A stretch of DNA of 25,371 nt from a virus. This document shows positions 6,681 to 25,371 of this stretch, piece by piece (position 1 is the stretch's first letter; the number at the start of each line of letters is the position of its first letter). The notes beneath the pieces were generated by a model. The model was not told the origin of the DNA and did not search any database. It saw nothing but the letters and a program-made list of their open reading frames with translations. The position numbers and the translations under genes are program-made. The stretch lies in IMG/VR virus record IMGVR_UViG_3300029319_000456, positions 1-25,371 of that record. One strand, 5' to 3'.

Positions 6681-7355
6681 CTATTCTGCCGCATCAACAA
6701 CTTTGTTGATTTCAGTTTCAATGTTTGACATTGATAAAGCCTGATCTTCATCTTTTGATGCGTCTACTTCATTTTGAAGTTCTTTCCATGCGTTAGTAGA
6801 ACGAATCTTACCATAGACCATACGATCTTTCATCATACGGTTCATAATAATCTTACGAGCCTCATCCTCTGAATACTCAAGTAAAACATATGCACGAAAC
6901 TGTGTTCCTGTTGGATATATCTCCATCTCTTTTGGATTGTAACCAGCAACATCAACTGATGCAATCACATTCTTTGTGACCTTCTCAACCTCTGACATTG
7001 TGGTTGCAGACACATCATCATCTGTACCAAGTCGTGTTACAAATGTTTTCATCATTGCATCCAACTTACCATTGATACGATCTGCAAGAGTGTATTTTGC
7101 GTTGAGTGTCGCCATGTCAATAGACAATTGCAAGTCTGGTGACTGTGCAGTACCAACACTATAAATTGACTTTTCGTCAGTTGGTAATGTTGTGAACCAA
7201 GATGGAACTGTCTTAGCTGCAGCCTCTACCTTTTCTTGTTTATACTCAACAGATGAGGTATTTAACATCTGTGTCGCATCTGGATTTTTAGAACAAGCAC
7301 CAAGTGCAAGAACACTTCCTAATACTCCAACAGTTACATAATTTAGATTATTCAT
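6681..7355 (-). CDS. LPP20-like lipoprotein
   Basis: This 224-residue protein has a lipoprotein signal: a short hydrophobic stretch with the lipobox LALGAC, Cys21 being the lipidated residue. The mature part resembles the LPP20 family (PSWF near residue 52, YSVGTAQSPDLQLSIDMATL, then AKYTLADRI), followed by a region with AYVLLEYSEDEARKIIMNRM. It should be anchored in the outer or inner membrane facing the periplasm. Similar genes occur in other marine T4-like phages. The role is unknown; exclusion or envelope stabilisation are speculation. Its start overlaps the 44-residue gene by one base (TAATG). Confidence 0.8.
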   Translation of the reverse strand: MNNLNYVTVGVLGSVLALGACSKNPDATQMLNTSSVEYKQEKVEAAAKTVPSWFTTLPTDEKSIYSVGTAQSPDLQLSIDMATLNAKYTLADRINGKLDAMMKTFVTRLGTDDDVSATTMSEVEKVTKNVIASVDVAGYNPKEMEIYPTGTQFRAYVLLEYSEDEARKIIMNRMMKDRMVYGKIRSTNAWKELQNEVDASKDEDQALSMSNIETEINKVVDAAE

Positions 7356-12542: not shown

Positions 12543-14147
12543 CTAGTTAAAATTATATTGTAAATCCTCCATTGCACCAAAGTTAGGATCATTCAAAAAC
12601 CATCTTGCAAAAGCATGATCAACTGTTGGTTTTGGTGGATAAAAATTATTATCCAAATTTTCTTTATCTGCATAATCAAATCCTGGCACATATGAAATCA
12701 ACGCAAGTAGTTGACGTTGTATTATCATATTCTGTTCCAGATTTACTTCTCTCTCAAGTTTTTTTGTAAGTTCTATTGCTTTCATAGCAAGTAGTAGTTT
12801 TATCTTCTCATTCCTTGTTTTTGGTTTTGGTGCATCCTTCTTGTTATCTGAATTTGCACTTTCCTTTAACTCTGCAAGTTCTTTCTCAATATCATCCTCT
12901 TGTGCCATATTACCATCACCAAGTGTTGCATCATCACTGGACGTACCAGCCTCATTTTCTAGTGCAGCAATCTCTTTTTCAATGTCATCTTCCATCTGTA
13001 ACTGTTCACCCTCAATACTATCATCAACCTCTTGAAATCCACTACCATCTTCTACCTCTACGACCTCTACCACTTGTTGCTCTGGTACATCAACTTCACC
13101 ACCTGTGTCACCACCTGTGCCTGTAAAGTCTAACTCTGCAACCACTGGAACATCTGGTTCAGATAGTATCTCCTCAACTGGGTCAACTGTACCCAAACTC
13201 GCAATCTCTGGGTCAAGGTAGTTTGGACAAGATTGGTCATACTGACTATCTAACTCACACTGTTGATCAAAGTATGCCTGTTGATATCCTGTGCATTGTA
13301 CATCATACAAAGGGTCATATAAACATCTGTCTGCAAGATATGCTGCGGCATAGCCAGGACAGGTAGGATCGTACAAAGGATTTGCAGTGCATAGTTGTGT
13401 GAAATTTGCAGCCGCATAGCCTGGACAAGTAGGGTCAAACAGTGGGTTCTGTGTGCATTGTTGATTGAATAATGCAGTTGCATATCCTTGACACTGTGGA
13501 TCATACAAAGGATTGTTGTGACATGGGTTTGCAGAAAATGTCAATTTAAGTTCAGATGCCTGCACGTTGAACTCTGGCCCATAGTGTCCTTGCCAGGCTG
13601 CACTATCACTACCTTGTGCAGACACGATAATATCTGAAAAAAAAGATGGTGGTAAAAATGGATCTACGAATGTTTCAGAACCACTATGATATGACCAATT
13701 ATGTTGATAACTAAAGTCATACTGATATGACGCATAAATGTTACCATTAGAATCGTAAACGTCTACGTTTATGAAAAAATCATCTGTGCCTGGTTGGTTT
13801 CCATATAGATTAGCATTACCATTTTTAACTCTCCACCTATATGTGAATCCGTTAACTTGAACTCCAGCCTGTGTTAATGCTTGATTGATTGCAATGGTTG
13901 TACTAACAATATTTGAACCACTACTCCAAACAAATCCAGTATCACTAGGCAGTGCATTTGGATCAGGGCCACCAAAACCATGCCACATACCAACACCATA
14001 TTGTCCAGACCAGTTTGAAGCATTAGGTTCTAATAAGTCACCAGTGGTTGATCCTGTGGCAGTATTTACTTGTGCGTTAGAGAAGGAGCAGTAAGAGTGC
14101 GAGAGAAAGACCACCAGCAGCAACTGCTGCATTACGTTTCTGAACAT
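12543..14147 (-). CDS. exported protein with five Cys-pair 22-residue repeats
   Basis: The 534-residue product begins with a signal peptide (hydrophobic core around LLLVVFLS, likely cut near SNAQ at 26). Residues about 30-205 form a beta-rich domain with Gly/Trp motifs (SGQYGVGMWHGFGG). Residues 209-318 hold five 22-residue repeats with Cys pairs ten residues apart (C..NPLYDP.CPGYAAA). Residues 320-420 are acidic and Pro/Glu-rich with two near-copies of DDIEKEIAALENEA, and residues 430-534 are helical. The repeats and signal suggest an extracytoplasmic disulfide-stabilised protein. Similar repeats occur in cyanophages, with unknown function; surface adhesion is one guess. The start at 14147 overlaps the upstream gene by 71 bases. 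Confidence 0.75.
   Translation of the reverse strand: MFRNVMQQLLLVVFLSHSYCSFSNAQVNTATGSTTGDLLEPNASNWSGQYGVGMWHGFGGPDPNALPSDTGFVWSSGSNIVSTTIAINQALTQAGVQVNGFTYRWRVKNGNANLYGNQPGTDDFFINVDVYDSNGNIYASYQYDFSYQHNWSYHSGSETFVDPFLPPSFFSDIIVSAQGSDSAAWQGHYGPEFNVQASELKLTFSANPCHNNPLYDPQCQGYATALFNQQCTQNPLFDPTCPGYAAANFTQLCTANPLYDPTCPGYAAAYLADRCLYDPLYDVQCTGYQQAYFDQQCELDSQYDQSCPNYLDPEIASLGTVDPVEEILSEPDVPVVAELDFTGTGGDTGGEVDVPEQQVVEVVEVEDGSGFQEVDDSIEGEQLQMEDDIEKEIAALENEAGTSSDDATLGDGNMAQEDDIEKELAELKESANSDNKKDAPKPKTRNEKIKLLLAMKAIELTKKLEREVNLEQNMIIQRQLLALISYVPGFDYADKENLDNNFYPPKPTVDHAFARWFLNDPNFGAMEDLQYNFN
13194..13523 (-). repeat. five tandem 66-base (22-residue) Cys repeats
   Basis: Conserved Cys start each unit at residues 209, 231, 253, 275 and 297 of the host protein, exactly 22 residues apart. 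The second Cys falls ten residues later in each. The middle three units are nearly identical around NPLYDPTCPGYAAA. The first and fifth have diverged. Confidence 0.9.
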
Positions 14148-14622
14148 CTTCTTTTGTCTCCATTTCTTTTACAACTGGTATTCTGTGTGGATTTGCTTTC
14201 CACTCATCAGTCGCCTGATCACCAATCTTTCCAAGAAACGGGCAAGGTGTCCCTGCCATTTCCATTGCATCATATACTCTACGATCCTGACACAGAACTG
14301 ATACTGCGGCAACTTTCATACCCATATCATATAATGTCTTTGAGATTTTTAGACGTTCACAGTTTTCATCTCTCACCATCTCTCCTGTGGAGACACCAAG
14401 AATTTGTGTCTGAACTGCACCAGATACCCCTGCCATACAAAGATCAGAGGTTGACGAACCAACACTTGGTGAGATTGCAGATGGTGGTGGACTAATTACA
14501 ACTGTCCTACCCTCTGTCTCAACCTCACTTGTTGATTTCGTAGTTGTATCTACAACTGTTTGTGAATATGCCGTTGATACTGTAGACAACACAATAAGAA
14601 CGGCGAACATAAATTTGTTCAT
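14077..14622 (-). CDS. conserved exported phage protein with C-terminal hydrophobic tail
   Basis: This 181-residue protein (ATG at 14622, GGAG upstream) has a signal peptide (MNKFMFAVLIVLSTVSTAYS), a Thr/Ser-rich stretch, then a conserved block: SSTSDLCMAGVSGAVQTQIL, RDENCERLKISKTLYDMGMK, SVLCQDRRVYDAMEMAGTPC. It ends in a hydrophobic tail (GGLSLALLLLLL). Three other Cys flank the conserved block. Homologues of the block are common in marine T4-like phages and have no known role. The 71-base overlap with the next gene is unusually long. Confidence 0.75.
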   Translation of the reverse strand: MNKFMFAVLIVLSTVSTAYSQTVVDTTTKSTSEVETEGRTVVISPPPSAISPSVGSSTSDLCMAGVSGAVQTQILGVSTGEMVRDENCERLKISKTLYDMGMKVAAVSVLCQDRRVYDAMEMAGTPCPFLGKIGDQATDEWKANPHRIPVVKEMETKEDVQKRNAAVAAGGLSLALLLLLL

Positions 14623-14648
14623 TTTATCTCCGACCATAGTTCTATTAG

Positions 14649-17741: not shown

Positions 17742-18260
17742 CTACTTTCCAACCATTTTCATAACTTTGCTCTGAAGAGCCATAAACTGACCTTTAGTTC
17801 CGTTTACCATCTTTTCAAGTTTTTTCTTATTGTCCATATTTACTTTATTATAGACTTGTGTGATTGCAGATGCAGTAAACATATCTACTTTCATAGTGCC
17901 ATCTTTAAACTTCACTGGTTTCATTTGTTTCTTCACCACGATATCTTTTAGGACGTTCATATTGTTTTCTTCAAGGTAAACCTCACGATTGAAGTCCATA
18001 GTATTTTCTTGAACCTTTTGTGAGAGTTTGGATTTTTGTTCTGCTCTTCTTGCCCTTGCTTGTCTTGCAGCATCAAGTTTCTGTCTGTGTTGTCTGTATG
18101 CTTTTGTCCTTGCGTCAAGAAATATTTTTTTCTTCTTCTTTTTCATCATCGCATCTGGAGGCATTGCAACACCACTACCCTGACCAGCAAAGTTGGTGGG
18201 TGCATCTTCCTCAACAGGCTGACCACTATAAGGACTTACTTCTTTCCAACTAATTGTCAT
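17742..18260 (-). CDS. conserved phage protein, unknown function
   Basis: The 172-residue protein begins with a Pro/Gly-rich head (YSGQPVEEDAPTNFAGQGSG, VAMPPDAMMKK), then a Lys-rich block and a long charged helix (TKAYRQHRQKLDAARQARAR). The tail (GTMKVDMFTASAITQVYNKV) is a recognisable conserved block in marine T4-like phages. No function is known. The start at 18260 has GGAGG and overlaps the upstream gene. Confidence 0.75.
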   Translation of the reverse strand: MTISWKEVSPYSGQPVEEDAPTNFAGQGSGVAMPPDAMMKKKKKKIFLDARTKAYRQHRQKLDAARQARARRAEQKSKLSQKVQENTMDFNREVYLEENNMNVLKDIVVKKQMKPVKFKDGTMKVDMFTASAITQVYNKVNMDNKKKLEKMVNGTKGQFMALQSKVMKMVGK

Positions 18261-18867: not shown

Positions 18868-19229
18868 TATAGTTTCCTTAATGTCTCAAAAACTTTTTCG
18901 TCTTTGTTTACGTTTTTTAATTCATCATCTCTTAATATATTTAGATATATTAGAAATGATTTAAGTGCAGGCCAATATTCTGGTTGGATTTTGTATAATA
19001 ACAAAGTAGAACAAGCATCTGCACCAAAGACATTGTTTAATACTATGATGTGATTTAATAATAATCTTTCTTTCAAAACATCGGTATCATAGTATTTTCT
19101 CAAAAGTCGTTTAATATACTTAAACCTTTTAAGATCATCTTCAAATTCTTTTTCACCTTCACAGTGTGGATTGTTGTAATTTCTAATCGCATACATCAAC
19201 ACATTGCTTGGTGTTATTTTTTCATACAT
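18867..19229 (-). CDS. conserved helical phage protein, DUF7207-like
   Basis: The 120-residue all-helical protein has the pattern CEGEKEFEDDLKRFKYIKRL, ERLLLNHIIVLNNVFGADAC and YWPALKSFLIYLNILRDDE, which I associate with a small conserved family in marine T4-like phages (annotated DUF7207, from memory). No enzymatic residues stand out. It couples to the previous gene by TAATG. Confidence 0.75.
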   Translation of the reverse strand: MYEKITPSNVLMYAIRNYNNPHCEGEKEFEDDLKRFKYIKRLLRKYYDTDVLKERLLLNHIIVLNNVFGADACSTLLLYKIQPEYWPALKSFLIYLNILRDDELKNVNKDEKVFETLRKL

Positions 19230-19672
19230 TATGATATACTGGCGTAAACTCTACACGATTGATTTCTAGGCATCATCTCATACTCAATCTTCAAACTTAG
19301 ACCACCTTCCACTTGGTTAGAAATCCCATCATCATTTACAAACTCATCATATGGTGTGTTTTCATCTTTACCAAAACGACCACCGAACAAAGATAGTGGT
19401 AAATCAAATGAACCACTTTGTCCTTCAAATACTGGTGTTGCTGGAAAAGATAAACCAATCTTATTAAGAGTTCCTCTCAATCTATGCACTGCGTGTTCTG
19501 GAACTAGATACTCTGCGTTCCCTATTTGACCAACAACAGCATTTAATCTTCTACGAACTGCTGGGTCACTCAACTGTGCTGTATTGATTTCCAGACTTCC
19601 ACCTAAGTTGTTTGGATGTTCGACAGAATGATATACTGATGCTTCAGATACAAACTTTTTAAATGATTCCAT
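19229..19672 (-). CDS. conserved phage protein with capsid-targeting-like leader
   Basis: The 147-residue product starts MESFKKFVSEASVYHSVEH. The first eleven residues closely parallel the T4 internal-protein leader MKTYQEFIAEA, with Glu10 then Ala11 where T4 prohead protease cuts. The body (GGSLEINTAQLSD, RLNAVVGQIGNAEYL, SGSFDLPLSLFGGRFGKD) is a conserved marine T4-like phage domain of unknown function. AAGGA precedes the start. It lies directly downstream of the 19691 terminator. Confidence 0.75.
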   Translation of the reverse strand: MESFKKFVSEASVYHSVEHPNNLGGSLEINTAQLSDPAVRRRLNAVVGQIGNAEYLVPEHAVHRLRGTLNKIGLSFPATPVFEGQSGSFDLPLSLFGGRFGKDENTPYDEFVNDDGISNQVEGGLSLKIEYEMMPRNQSCRVYASIS

Positions 19673-21492: not shown

Positions 21493-22014
21493 TTATTTAA
21501 AACCTAAACGCTTCAAGTCGTTTATAGTTTTGGGGACTGATGTATGATGTATTCCTATACCACCTTTTGCTTCCCACTCTTTTATGTTTTTAATATAGTC
21601 ATCAATAAGAACATTTGGTTCACCATCACTATCTTTCGCAAATGCTTGTTTCTGATCTCTTCTTACCAAATGTATTTTACTCCTTTTGAAGTCCGTTCTT
21701 TGTAACCACTTCATTTTGCCTGGCCGAGAGTTTGCATCTCGTTTTGAGTAAGCAGAAAGTATGTATGCATCATATCTTATGATGAATGAATACAATCTTT
21801 TTGCCCCAGGCATCCACTCTAGATTTGCCCAAAAGTTTTTCGTATTACTTATCTTATTCCATCTGTCTGCTTTATCTGCCTGAACAAACGAACCACCTAC
21901 CACATGATCTGCGGCTTTCATAAAGTCGCAGAGAACCATGTCCATATCACAATATATGGAAGGCAAGTCCTCTGTTGCGACTTTGGCTTCTAAGACATCT
22001 GAAAAACTTTTCAT
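21493..22014 (-). CDS. HAD-superfamily nucleotidase-like enzyme with leader
   Basis: This 173-residue protein has HAD motif I at residues 20-31 (IYCDMDMVLCDF; nucleophile Asp23, acid/base Asp25), motif II in AYILSAYSKRD, a probable motif III Lys/Arg region around WLQRTDFKRSK, and motif IV VLIDDYIKNIKEWE. The size fits small 5'(3')-deoxyribonucleotidase or phosphatase relatives, which are known in phages. The leader MKSFSDVLEAK resembles T4 capsid-targeting sequences. It would hydrolyse a phosphate ester, the substrate being unknown. It couples to the previous gene by TAATG. Confidence 0.82.
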   Translation of the reverse strand: MKSFSDVLEAKVATEDLPSIYCDMDMVLCDFMKAADHVVGGSFVQADKADRWNKISNTKNFWANLEWMPGAKRLYSFIIRYDAYILSAYSKRDANSRPGKMKWLQRTDFKRSKIHLVRRDQKQAFAKDSDGEPNVLIDDYIKNIKEWEAKGGIGIHHTSVPKTINDLKRLGFK

Positions 22015-22562
22015 TACCTAACATTCTTCTTTCCGACTTTGACTTCTTTCATATCTGGATCAATATTAACTTTCGTCATTGGTTTGCCAGTCATGGTTTT
22101 ATCTTCGTCTTTCTTTTTCTTTTCACTTGGTAGATGTCCACCTTCTGTCTTAAAAGGATTATGACCTTCTCCCATACCCCAGATTTTAGCAAGTGCCTCT
22201 CTCATAGATGCATTTTTCTTTTGCATGGTATCCACTTGTTGTTGCCAATCATCTTGTGACTGGCCAGGAGTTGCATCCAATTTTGCCATTGTATTTTCTG
22301 GTGTACCAATATCATAGTTTTCGTTTTTCTTCTCTTTTGCCTTAATTGCTTTCTGTAGTGCTGGTGGTAATTTTTCTTGTGCCTTAGTTAATTCATCCAC
22401 CTTTTTTTTCTTTGCATCTTTTCTTAACATTGCAAAATCTTTTGCATCAATGTCACCATCTTTATCTTTGTCAAGTTTCTTTTGTCCCCCAACAAGTTTT
22501 TCACCAACAGCCTTACGAATTGATTCCTCAAGACTGCCTTTTTTTGTATCAAAATATGCCAT
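22014..22562 (-). CDS. EF-hand-containing Lys-rich phage protein
   Basis: The 182-residue protein is Lys/Asp-rich. An EF-hand-like calcium loop (DKDKDGDIDAKDF, residues 31-43) is flanked by helical segments. The start MAYFDTKKGSLEESIRKAVG and the tail are recognisable from T4-like marine phages near head genes. Much of the rest appears disordered. A scaffold- or core-type role is plausible because of the location and composition, but it is inference. GAGGAG precedes the start. Confidence 0.72.
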   Translation of the reverse strand: MAYFDTKKGSLEESIRKAVGEKLVGGQKKLDKDKDGDIDAKDFAMLRKDAKKKKVDELTKAQEKLPPALQKAIKAKEKKNENYDIGTPENTMAKLDATPGQSQDDWQQQVDTMQKKNASMREALAKIWGMGEGHNPFKTEGGHLPSEKKKKDEDKTMTGKPMTKVNIDPDMKEVKVGKKNVR

Positions 22563-22592: not shown

Positions 22593-24620
22593 TTAATCGT
22601 TTCTGTGAGCATATGCAATACTTGACATATACTCACCCCCTTTTGATCTTGGATACATTTTCATAAATGCCTTTGAATCATTTCTTGAAATGACATCCAT
22701 GACTGCCTCTAGTGCAGCTGTATCTAGATTATAGATAAATTTTCTAAGACCTGTTAAATCTTTTTTCATGTATAATTGTTTTGCCTTTTGAAAATCTTTC
22801 TTGTCAATCCCACCATCTTTAATTATTCTGTCAAATGCCTTTGATGCATTTTCATCAAGTTTAACTTCTTCACCCATGTTCAACAGTCTCGCAATATCTT
22901 TGCCAGGAACATAGTCTGGTAATACCTTCTCTAGTGACTTTCTTGGGTCTAGAGTTTTTTGTGCATCTTTCACGAACTTGTCTGCAAATGCTTTCATCAT
23001 TCTATCTTTTTTCATTGCGTTTGCAATATCGTCAATATAAGATTTCATTCTTTTCATCTTACCCTCATCAAGTTCAACTTCTTCACCTACTATCCTTGGT
23101 AAAGATCTAAATTTGTCTGAGTCTTTAAGAGCTGATCTTGCATCCTTCACATCTTGTTTGTCCACATAAAGTCTACCACTTCTGAAACTTCCAGAAATAC
23201 CAGCATCTTTGAGGACAAGAAGAACCTCTTTCTCGTATCCCTCACCAAGTTCAACTTCTTCTTTAAATGGGCGGTTTACCATCATGTCACCCTTTTTATC
23301 TGACATAGGTTTTTTTAGTTTTACAACCTTACCATCATTTCTTCTTGCCATGTCCTTTGCATCTTTTTCATCAGATGCAAATCCAATAACCAATCCTTTT
23401 TTGTCAACTGCAACATGAGTATATTTCATTCCCTCATCAAGTTCATCTTCAATGTATTCTTTCATTTCCATCTTGTCCATGAACTTTACATGGGCATCAA
23501 TACTCTTGGATTGTCTCTTATGTGCTTCAGATGCTTTCTGTAGTTCACCAACAATCTTTTTCAGATCTGCAAGACCACCAGCACCTTCTGGGCCCTTTGC
23601 ATTTGCCTTAGTCATCATATCCACATGAGCCTGAACTCTCTTAGATTGTGCGAGGTGCATACCAGATGCCTTAACCAACTCACCAACTAGATTTTTAAGG
23701 TCTGGGATATCTCCTGCCTTCTCGTCAAGTTCAATTTCTTCACCACGCAATTTCATTACAGCATCATCTTGTGCCTGTCTTTTTTCTAGATCTGCAATCA
23801 ACTCCTTGATTCTCATTTTTGCAAATCCCCTGCCAGGAGTTTTCTTACCTCTTTCCAAACCCTTCAACATTTTTTGGAGTTGACTTATCTCACCTCTGAT
23901 GTCTGGGCCATATTCAGATTTCTCTTCTAGTTCAACTTCCTCTGTAGTTGGAACTAAGAAATAGTCTCTGAGTTTATTCATACTGTTTGATGACACTGCG
24001 AGTTTGTTAGTCCACCAACTTGGTAGTGAATCTTCTGGGTTCATGGTCTGTAGTTTTGATGTGATCTGCATCGCATCCTCAACCATAGTCTTGCACTGAC
24101 GAATTGCAGATGCGACATCTGTGTGACCATCCTCTTGAATATCAACTTCTTCTTTAGCAACTGCGACCATCTGTTTTGATTTTGCTTTAATTTTAGGTAA
24201 CTCATTTGCCTTTCCGGCGGCCCGCATCGCAGCCACATCTGGAGTTGCTTGAGTATTTGGTGGGCCTTCATTAATCTTTACATCTTTCTTCTGAACTGCA
24301 AGTGTGATTGCCATGACCACTTTTTGATTACCAGAGATCTCAATCTTATCTTTACCTAAATCTTTTACTTTCAGACCTCTTTGTTTTGCAAGATCCATGA
24401 TAGAGTTTTTCAGTCTGTCTCCACCAAATCTGGATAGTGTTGCTTTTGCCTCATCAAGGACTTCTTCATCTTTTTTGCCCTTCTTACCTTTTGCCTTATA
24501 ACCTTGTGCAAACGCAGCCCGTCTTTGTGCATCTGAAGCAAACCCTTCATCTAAGTTCTGTGGTTTCTCAAAGGCCTCAACTTGTTTCATAAGTTCTGCC
24601 ATGTTTGTTGTATTTTTCAT
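22593..24620 (-). CDS. 675-residue modular protein of small domains joined by EEVELDEG-type linkers
   Basis: The protein strings at least eight small helical or alpha/beta domains together. Between them are linkers with L/I-x-E: L23-E25, L55-E57, I116-E118, I161-E163, L231-E233, L298-E300, L394-E396, L458-E460, L517-E519, L588-E590. These resemble T4 prohead protease sites. The domain at 304-338 is repeated at 349-385 (LVGELVKASGMHLAQSKRVQ versus IVGELQKASEAHKRQSKSID). A KYTHVAVDKKGLVIGF domain (from 399) is known from marine phages. It may be a processed internal-head or core protein. AGGATAAGGA precedes the ATG. Confidence 0.72.
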   Translation of the reverse strand: MKNTTNMAELMKQVEAFEKPQNLDEGFASDAQRRAAFAQGYKAKGKKGKKDEEVLDEAKATLSRFGGDRLKNSIMDLAKQRGLKVKDLGKDKIEISGNQKVVMAITLAVQKKDVKINEGPPNTQATPDVAAMRAAGKANELPKIKAKSKQMVAVAKEEVDIQEDGHTDVASAIRQCKTMVEDAMQITSKLQTMNPEDSLPSWWTNKLAVSSNSMNKLRDYFLVPTTEEVELEEKSEYGPDIRGEISQLQKMLKGLERGKKTPGRGFAKMRIKELIADLEKRQAQDDAVMKLRGEEIELDEKAGDIPDLKNLVGELVKASGMHLAQSKRVQAHVDMMTKANAKGPEGAGGLADLKKIVGELQKASEAHKRQSKSIDAHVKFMDKMEMKEYIEDELDEGMKYTHVAVDKKGLVIGFASDEKDAKDMARRNDGKVVKLKKPMSDKKGDMMVNRPFKEEVELGEGYEKEVLLVLKDAGISGSFRSGRLYVDKQDVKDARSALKDSDKFRSLPRIVGEEVELDEGKMKRMKSYIDDIANAMKKDRMMKAFADKFVKDAQKTLDPRKSLEKVLPDYVPGKDIARLLNMGEEVKLDENASKAFDRIIKDGGIDKKDFQKAKQLYMKKDLTGLRKFIYNLDTAALEAVMDVISRNDSKAFMKMYPRSKGGEYMSSIAYAHRND

Positions 24621-24624
24621 TTCC

Positions 24625-25371
24625 TTATCCTTTCATCAAATCTGTGACAGACTTGCCTTTTTCCCAAAATTTACATGACCAGTATCTTGCTTTATATTTT
24701 GGGCCAGGATTATCGCAGTTGTGTCTTGCACGAAAATTTTTTCTTCTTGCTGGATCATCTCGTTTGATCTCCATGTTGGGATCACCAAACTCAACCTTGA
24801 CAACATTACCCTTGTCGTTTTTTACATATACCTTAAACTTTTTTACATCACCCCTTGTAGGGTTATTTAGTTGAACTTTTCTTCCTTGATACTCTGCGGC
24901 TTCAGTTACTTCACCCCATACGTTTTTTAGTTCCACCTGATTAAATTTAAGTAAGGTGTTTTCACCTTTTGCTCTTTTCATCTGTGCTGGTGTGGGTGCT
25001 CCCTTCTCACCCTTCTTTCTCATTCTTTCACCAGAACCTCTTTTGATTCTTTGTCTCTTCTTGTGAATGTTTGCCCACAGACTTTCTTTGATATCAGTTC
25101 TACCAAAACCGAGCTTTGGTTTTCCCTTTATCACAGAGTCAATATGCATTTTCATATAGTCATCTATATCATCTGCAAGTCCAATCTCACCAGCCTTTTT
25201 CATAATTTTATTGTATAAATCGACTGCTTGTTTTTTTTGTTCCTCTGATGCTTCACCAGCATCCATTGCCTCTTTCTCTAACTTATAAAAATCATCTTGC
25301 ATACGAGTGAGTTCCTCTGCACCCTCTACATTTGCATTTGCTTTCATAACCTTCTGTGCAGAACCACACAT
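24625..25371 (-). CDS. modular head-region protein, probably partial at the window edge
   Basis: The frame is open across the window edge; an ATG is the last codon, but the real start may lie outside. The 248 residues include a coiled acidic part, a block DIKESLWANIHKKRQRIKRG then GERMRKKGEKGAPTPAQMKR, and a C-terminal basic domain (YQGRKVQLNNPTRGDVKKFK to CDNPGPKYKARYWSCKFW) that I know from T4-like marine phages, where it can follow a leader ending LTEA. Here a VTEAAEYQGRK junction separates the parts. The protein is probably a head-associated basic protein. The role is not established. Confidence 0.68.
   Translation of the reverse strand: MCGSAQKVMKANANVEGAEELTRMQDDFYKLEKEAMDAGEASEEQKKQAVDLYNKIMKKAGEIGLADDIDDYMKMHIDSVIKGKPKLGFGRTDIKESLWANIHKKRQRIKRGSGERMRKKGEKGAPTPAQMKRAKGENTLLKFNQVELKNVWGEVTEAAEYQGRKVQLNNPTRGDVKKFKVYVKNDKGNVVKVEFGDPNMEIKRDDPARRKNFRARHNCDNPGPKYKARYWSCKFWEKGKSVTDLMKG

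Follow-up and report, generated by a model that had tools for sequence, protein, structure and literature searches.

Modular architecture of a proposed polyprotein gene

Within the window, the stretch of 25,371 nucleotides from virus record IMGVR_UViG_3300029319_000456 that was analysed here, a 675-residue open reading frame with an ATG start occupies positions 22593-24620 on the minus strand. Its compact domains are separated by short linkers with an L/I-x-E motif, which raises the question whether the protein is a precursor that is cut by a T4 gp21-type prohead protease and, if so, what becomes of the pieces. The initial annotation had read it as a polyprotein processed inside the prohead into many small internal peptides. 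The window and its virus record are probably a genome fragment.

The reading frame was verified and encodes a modular protein, the proposed polyprotein. All ten glutamates listed in the initial annotation (25, 57, 118, 163, 233, 300, 396, 460, 519, and 590) occupy P1 of an L/I-x-E motif, and six of them (25, 57, 118, 396, 460, and 519), rather than the five counted before, are followed by Gly or Ala. An eleventh match, IKE at 273, had been passed over, correctly because the model places it with confidence in a helix. The bare count of 11 against 6.7 expected from shuffled sequences (z 1.9) is not significant, so that the number of motifs is by itself no evidence. What exceeds chance in the window protein is the linker form E/D-E-V/I-x-L/I-x-E, the interdomain position, the copies of linker DNA, and the pattern in relatives.

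For a comparison with related proteins, 33 seeds were cut by hand and eye between linkers and turned into profiles, which define about 33 module families. On the minus strand, the N-terminal 25 residues (24546-24620) end in site 1 (NLDE↓G, P1 = 25; the arrow follows P1), the first L/I-x-E, and are proposed as a candidate targeting propeptide, although their resemblance to the T4 capsid targeting sequence (CTS) is only loose. Profile matches and sites then follow in the order M29 (residues 27-52, 24465-24542), site 2 (LDE↓A, P1 = 57, 24450-24458), M22 (residues 60-117, 24270-24443), site 3 (INE↓G, P1 = 118, 24267-24275), site 4 (IQE↓D, P1 = 163, 24132-24140), M11 (residues 165-221, 23958-24128), which also occurs in HTVC008M gp132, site 5 (LEE↓K, P1 = 233, 23922-23930), M28 (residues 235-282, 23775-23918), which includes IKE 273, and site 6 (LDE↓K, P1 = 300, 23721-23729). 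Module M20 is present in two copies (residues 302-336, 23613-23717, and residues 347-381, 23478-23582), which are identical at 18 of 33 residues and have no site between them, in keeping with the duplication noted earlier. The C-terminal half continues with site 7 (LDE↓G, P1 = 396, 23433-23441), M15 (residues 401-450, 23271-23420), site 8 (LGE↓G, P1 = 460, 23241-23249), M19 (residues 462-511, 23088-23237), site 9 (LDE↓G, P1 = 519, 23064-23072), M17 (residues 520-579, 22884-23063), site 10 (LDE↓N, P1 = 590, 22851-22859), and M08 (residues 594-673, 22602-22841), which is C-terminal here and internal in relatives.

No match was obtained when annotated phages were searched by tblastn with the entire window protein. 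Searches of Pfam and PHROGs with the window protein and eight relatives revealed no embedded peptidase and no ParB, ART, RelA/SpoT, or lysozyme domain, and the modules received no usable functional assignment from the same databases, except for DUF5824 in M23 and weak matches.

An AlphaFold2 model of the window protein was built from a 10-row collinear alignment, a 45-row alignment having been dropped since it was misaligned through module replacement. With this shallow alignment the mean pLDDT is 55. Of the 11 L/I-x-E matches, nine lie in segments with pLDDT below 50 and a tenth is two residues outside one, which leaves IKE 273 as the one exception. The nine-of-11 placement is equalled in 12 of 674 circular shifts. 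The commonest polyprotein module, M03, is predicted as a confident small β barrel (pLDDT 88), but fold comparison returned nothing better than middling matches with unrelated proteins, from which no function could be read, and the same comparison with the whole window protein gave nothing convincing. The "small internal peptides" of the initial annotation are better described as small folded domains, most of about 40-120 residues.

Shuffling of modules among relatives

Relatives were reached via metagenomic viral contigs and thereafter through phage Melnitz. The first scan of viral contigs identified 15 relatives, with proteins of 485-889 residues built from the same segments in different numbers and orders, and two further scans with single modules yielded 16 loci and at least 80 loci. 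The isolates in the group are Methylophilales phage Melnitz, Pelagibacter phage HTVC008M, and phage C48C1, all Kyanoviridae; the polyprotein of Melnitz is CDS20 (QZI94753.1). Among the matches listed, the profiles found three or more modules in at least 122 proteins with at least 84 orders. Once near-duplicates were removed, the matches listed comprised at least 91 proteins and 77 orders, along with at least 151 different neighbour pairs and 256 unique joints. Because most of the proteins come from one scan, these counts do not represent independent events.

Some modules are also encoded by genes of their own. In C48C1 this applies to M23 and M26, which are fused in relatives, and in HTVC008M to M26; in the window, a small gene at 17742-18260 on the minus strand encodes a free-standing M02 (residues 67-159, E 1e-19), which is fused into polyproteins elsewhere. 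The comparison of domain order and number that had been suggested as a check shows both to vary widely, while the sites remain at the joints. With dozens of block orders among relatives, the protein looks like swappable cargo packed in the head.

Proposed cleavage motifs at the module joints

An L/I-x-E motif is present in 195 of the 256 unique joints among the matches listed, whereas pieces of equal length from module interiors of the same proteins carry it in 4.0 ± 1.8 of 256 cases (300 draws, largest 12). The control motifs behave differently, with joint versus interior counts of 29 versus 51 for L/I-x-D, 47 versus 120 for L/I-x-K, and 70 versus 64 for A/G-x-E. About a quarter of the joints (61 of 256) lack L/I-x-E, and several of these have V/M-x-E instead. 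Module interiors contain 11 L/I-x-E motifs against 46.8 expected, a depletion that is partly circular because the motif itself guided the eye when seeds were cut; a few internal sites lie in four families (M11, M28, M02, and M15).

A seed-free test was therefore applied. For each position it was asked whether the 18 residues to its left and the 18 to its right are also adjacent in other relatives, using ungapped 18-mers, as a BLAST version of the break test was blurred by gapped extension. The rate of order breaks is 0.41-0.46 around L/I-x-E, 0.02-0.06 at a distance of 20-24 residues, and 0.11 overall. The control motifs L/I-x-D, L/I-x-K, and A/G-x-E have rates of 0.15, 0.07, and 0.10, respectively. 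With cytidylyltransferase fusions excluded, L/I-x-E occurs at 0.66 times the expectation in positions that never break and at 2.32 times in those that often do, an interior depletion milder than the seed-based one. The proposal of a polyprotein with gp21-type sites between modules that are gained and lost passed the computational tests that were run.

Conservation of the positions read by T4 gp21

Among homologous linkers of equal length, 93% retain the P1 Glu and 90% retain L/I at P3. The remaining linker positions range over 62-75%, with 68% for P2, 67% for P4, 70% for P5, and 62% for P1', and other Glu residues reach 79%. The two best-conserved linker positions are those that T4 gp21 reads. 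The joints contain LxE 265 times and LxD 29 times, though the linkers are rich in both acids, and L and I interchange at P3. Processing at the T4 CTS is governed by equivalent positions, and Asp at P1 blocks cutting there (PMC9026906). Loss of the sites from relatives that keep the domains would have spoken against processing; the nearest relative (L002) retains all ten sites, two of them adjoining a module swapped for an unrelated one. In that relative an M06-type module stands in place of M15, and M17 is replaced by an unrelated module.

The isolate Melnitz encodes a gp21-type protease (QZI94933.1) with 38% identity to T4 gp21 (E 5.5e-26), and this protease carries the motif as well; the 25-kb window does not include the capsid genes. 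The same rule is seen in the major capsid protein, where FLTE↓A of T4, which we take to be the exact cut, aligns with FLSE↓A of Melnitz, and S-CREM2 has LLTE↓A. The propeptide of the T4 capsid protein comprises 65 residues, consistent with a cut at this motif (PMC5694885). In the polyproteins, L/I-x-E stands at the place expected for internal proteins processed by gp21.

Linker DNA as a probable recombination seam

The linkers are also conserved as DNA. A 20-base linker seam has five near-copies in the window, all in the polyprotein gene, against 0.01 expected; one exact copy lies at 23065-23084, at site 9. The Leu codon is CTT in 32 of 32 EEVELDE copies (27% in the background), and between unrelated joints the codons of equal residues agree in 75% of cases against 50% expected (Leu, 70% against 21%). 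With a conserved 20-base seam in its DNA, the joint probably serves recombination too.

Such conservation beyond the protein level would suit a linker that is a recombination seam and nothing else, in a multidomain protein that acts uncut. Half of the joints without likeness to the seam (24 of 48) nevertheless carry L/I-x-E, as opposed to 2% of interior pieces, and recombination alone is therefore not sufficient to account for the motif. Nor would a seam of this kind call for the interchange of L and I at P3 or the preference for Glu over Asp at P1, and it leaves the virion locus and the gp22-like tail, both described below, without explanation. We regard this reading as improbable, and the linker is likely to have both roles, as protease site and as recombination seam.

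Links between the polyprotein locus and the phage head

Seven of 82 complete polyproteins, among the matches listed, end in a C-terminal tail similar to that of gp22, for example DNMSAYTAAITKGVK. Among 1766 other reading frames, the same tail was found only in two duplicates of those polyproteins and in gp22 of Melnitz (AMSAYMSAISKNVKRGKV); the C terminus of T4 gp22 is EDIVSVYAKVASRF. The window protein has no such tail. A sequence ATAAATA, presumably a late promoter as in T4, precedes the cluster by about 45 bases in Melnitz and L002 and is found likewise before gp22 and gp23.

Upstream of the polyprotein gene, at 24625-25371 on the minus strand, lies the C-terminal part of a modular cytidylyltransferase/NMNAT-like protein, which is interrupted by the contig end and has 1147 residues in L002. 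The syntenic genes 89, 90, 91 (NMNAT), 92, and 93 of cyanophage S-SCSM1 encode virion proteins according to mass spectrometry (PMC9602691), as do the cytidylyltransferase gene of S-CREM2 and the next two genes (154-156; PMC10665884). In several cyanophages the product of the NMNAT-like neighbour gene is virion-associated and not part of the tail (PMC9602691, PMC10665884). S-SCSM1 gene 92, directly after the NMNAT gene, contains a KEEVELDE↓R linker and module M27 (E 4e-9); several marine contigs have M27 fused to polyproteins. No virion proteome was found in the Melnitz paper.

Several further features of the neighbourhood were recorded. The upstream protein (L002:6553-9996; window 24625-25371) is a second modular polyprotein, with M23, M05, M02, M24, and M26 and the same linkers, and a hydrophobic-x-E↓A/S site stands before M26 in nearly all cases. 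The small protein encoded downstream (22014-22562, minus strand) has an EF-hand-like DxDxDG segment, and segments related to it (M27) are fused to the polyprotein C terminus in L087, L096, L099, L104, and L105. Upstream of the cytidylyltransferase, Melnitz encodes two large conserved proteins without assigned function (CDS15 and CDS16; L017:12203-14528), both of which are kept in HTVC008M and the second in C48C1; CDS15 starts with MQGFKTFLSEA, which is like a targeting sequence. In the window, a 5'-deoxyribonucleotidase-like protein (21493-22014, minus strand) starts with MKSFSDVLEA, and a protein without assigned function (19229-19672, minus strand) with MESFKKFVSEA. These T4-type capsid-targeting starts with V-x-E↓A suggest that the two proteins may be packaged too. 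Farther away, 6681-7355 and 12543-14637 (minus strand) hold a small lipoprotein-like reading frame and proteins with signal-peptide-like starts, with NPLYDPxCPGY repeats in 12543-14147; Melnitz has curli-like secretion genes elsewhere in its genome.

Cargo or scaffold

The gp22-like tail of some members would also fit an additional scaffold or core protein, like gp22, gp67, and gp68, that is shredded by gp21 and whose peptides leave the head, as happens in T4 with the short fragments produced from the core proteins (PMC5694885). Like the polyprotein, gp22 of T4 has many L/I-x-E sites. Its sites, however, number 16 against 5.7 expected, and those of S-CREM2 gp22 15 against 5.0, an excess of about threefold that predicts pieces of about 16 residues; Melnitz gp22 has 11 against 7.0. 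The polyprotein lacks the dense sites for such shredding: its modules would be spared, and if all sites were cut, 93% of the mass would stay in pieces of 40 residues or more, a design that fits the release of folded units rather than destruction. The modules are moreover conserved, folded by prediction (M03), and in some cases separate genes, which makes a scaffold about as doubtful as a pure recombination seam. Slightly less probable still is an uncleaved beads-on-a-string protein, for instance a tail, neck, or cytoplasmic multivalent binder, since acidic flexible linkers alone would yield low-pLDDT joints but would not hold P3 to L/I and P1 to Glu rather than Asp (LxE 265, LxD 29), and since the NMNAT-like neighbour is virion-associated and no tail part in several cyanophages.

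A proposed combinatorial cargo polyprotein

The reading that we favour, with a probability of about 0.72, is that of a cargo polyprotein that is incorporated in the prohead core and cut by the gp21-type protease into folded units, which are kept in the head and probably injected. In a marine T4-like phage from the Melnitz/HTVC008M group, the precursor would be made late and recruited to the prohead core by terminal targeting segments. The gp21-type prohead protease of the phage would then cut after the Glu of the L/I-x-E linkers and release about ten small folded units, which we infer to remain in the head with the DNA and, on the precedent of T4, probably to enter the host with it. As a fixed joint, which is a protease site and at many joints also a short DNA seam, the linker would permit modules to be exchanged in frame between genes and between phages. 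We give somewhat better than an even chance to the view that this phage system is of a categorically new kind, namely a combinatorial cargo polyprotein whose short linker serves both as capsid-protease site and as in-frame DNA joint, and through which effector sets are exchanged.

Parts of this scheme have precedents. The internal proteins IPI-IPIII and Alt of T4 are small packaged proteins freed from a propeptide by the prohead protease after L/I-x-E, and the internal proteins form a highly variable set of which at least IPI counters host restriction. Each of them, however, has its own gene and a single N-terminal propeptide, whereas the present precursor combines about ten units, with a site per joint. 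Gp22 would share with the polyprotein its place in the prohead core and shares with some members the C-terminal tail, but it is shredded. Polyvalent proteins are likewise multidomain, delivered together with DNA, variable in architecture, and proposed to release their domains by proteolysis (Iyer et al. 2017, PMC5512222); they typically contain their own peptidase and known enzyme domains, whereas none was found here and the capsid protease would carry out the release. Head proteins of phiKZ and SPN3US undergo several Glu-specific cuts by a gp21 relative (PMC7411985, PMC10052503, PMC9026906), but those cuts remove long propeptides, whereas here they would separate retained units.

The initial annotation had called such a system undescribed, and text searches for a phage prohead polyprotein indeed gave only papers on polyvalent proteins and on T4- and phiKZ-type heads. 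We know of no other tailed-phage head polyprotein that is cut into several retained products, and if the proposed processing is true, this would be the first. Delivery of many proteins by these marine phages at the onset of infection would then be explained, as would the fast evolution of the delivered set without damage to assembly. Some 33 module families, most of them uncharacterised, would also be marked as proteins that are likely packaged by phages of SAR11 and OM43, very abundant ocean bacteria whose phage infection biology is little known.
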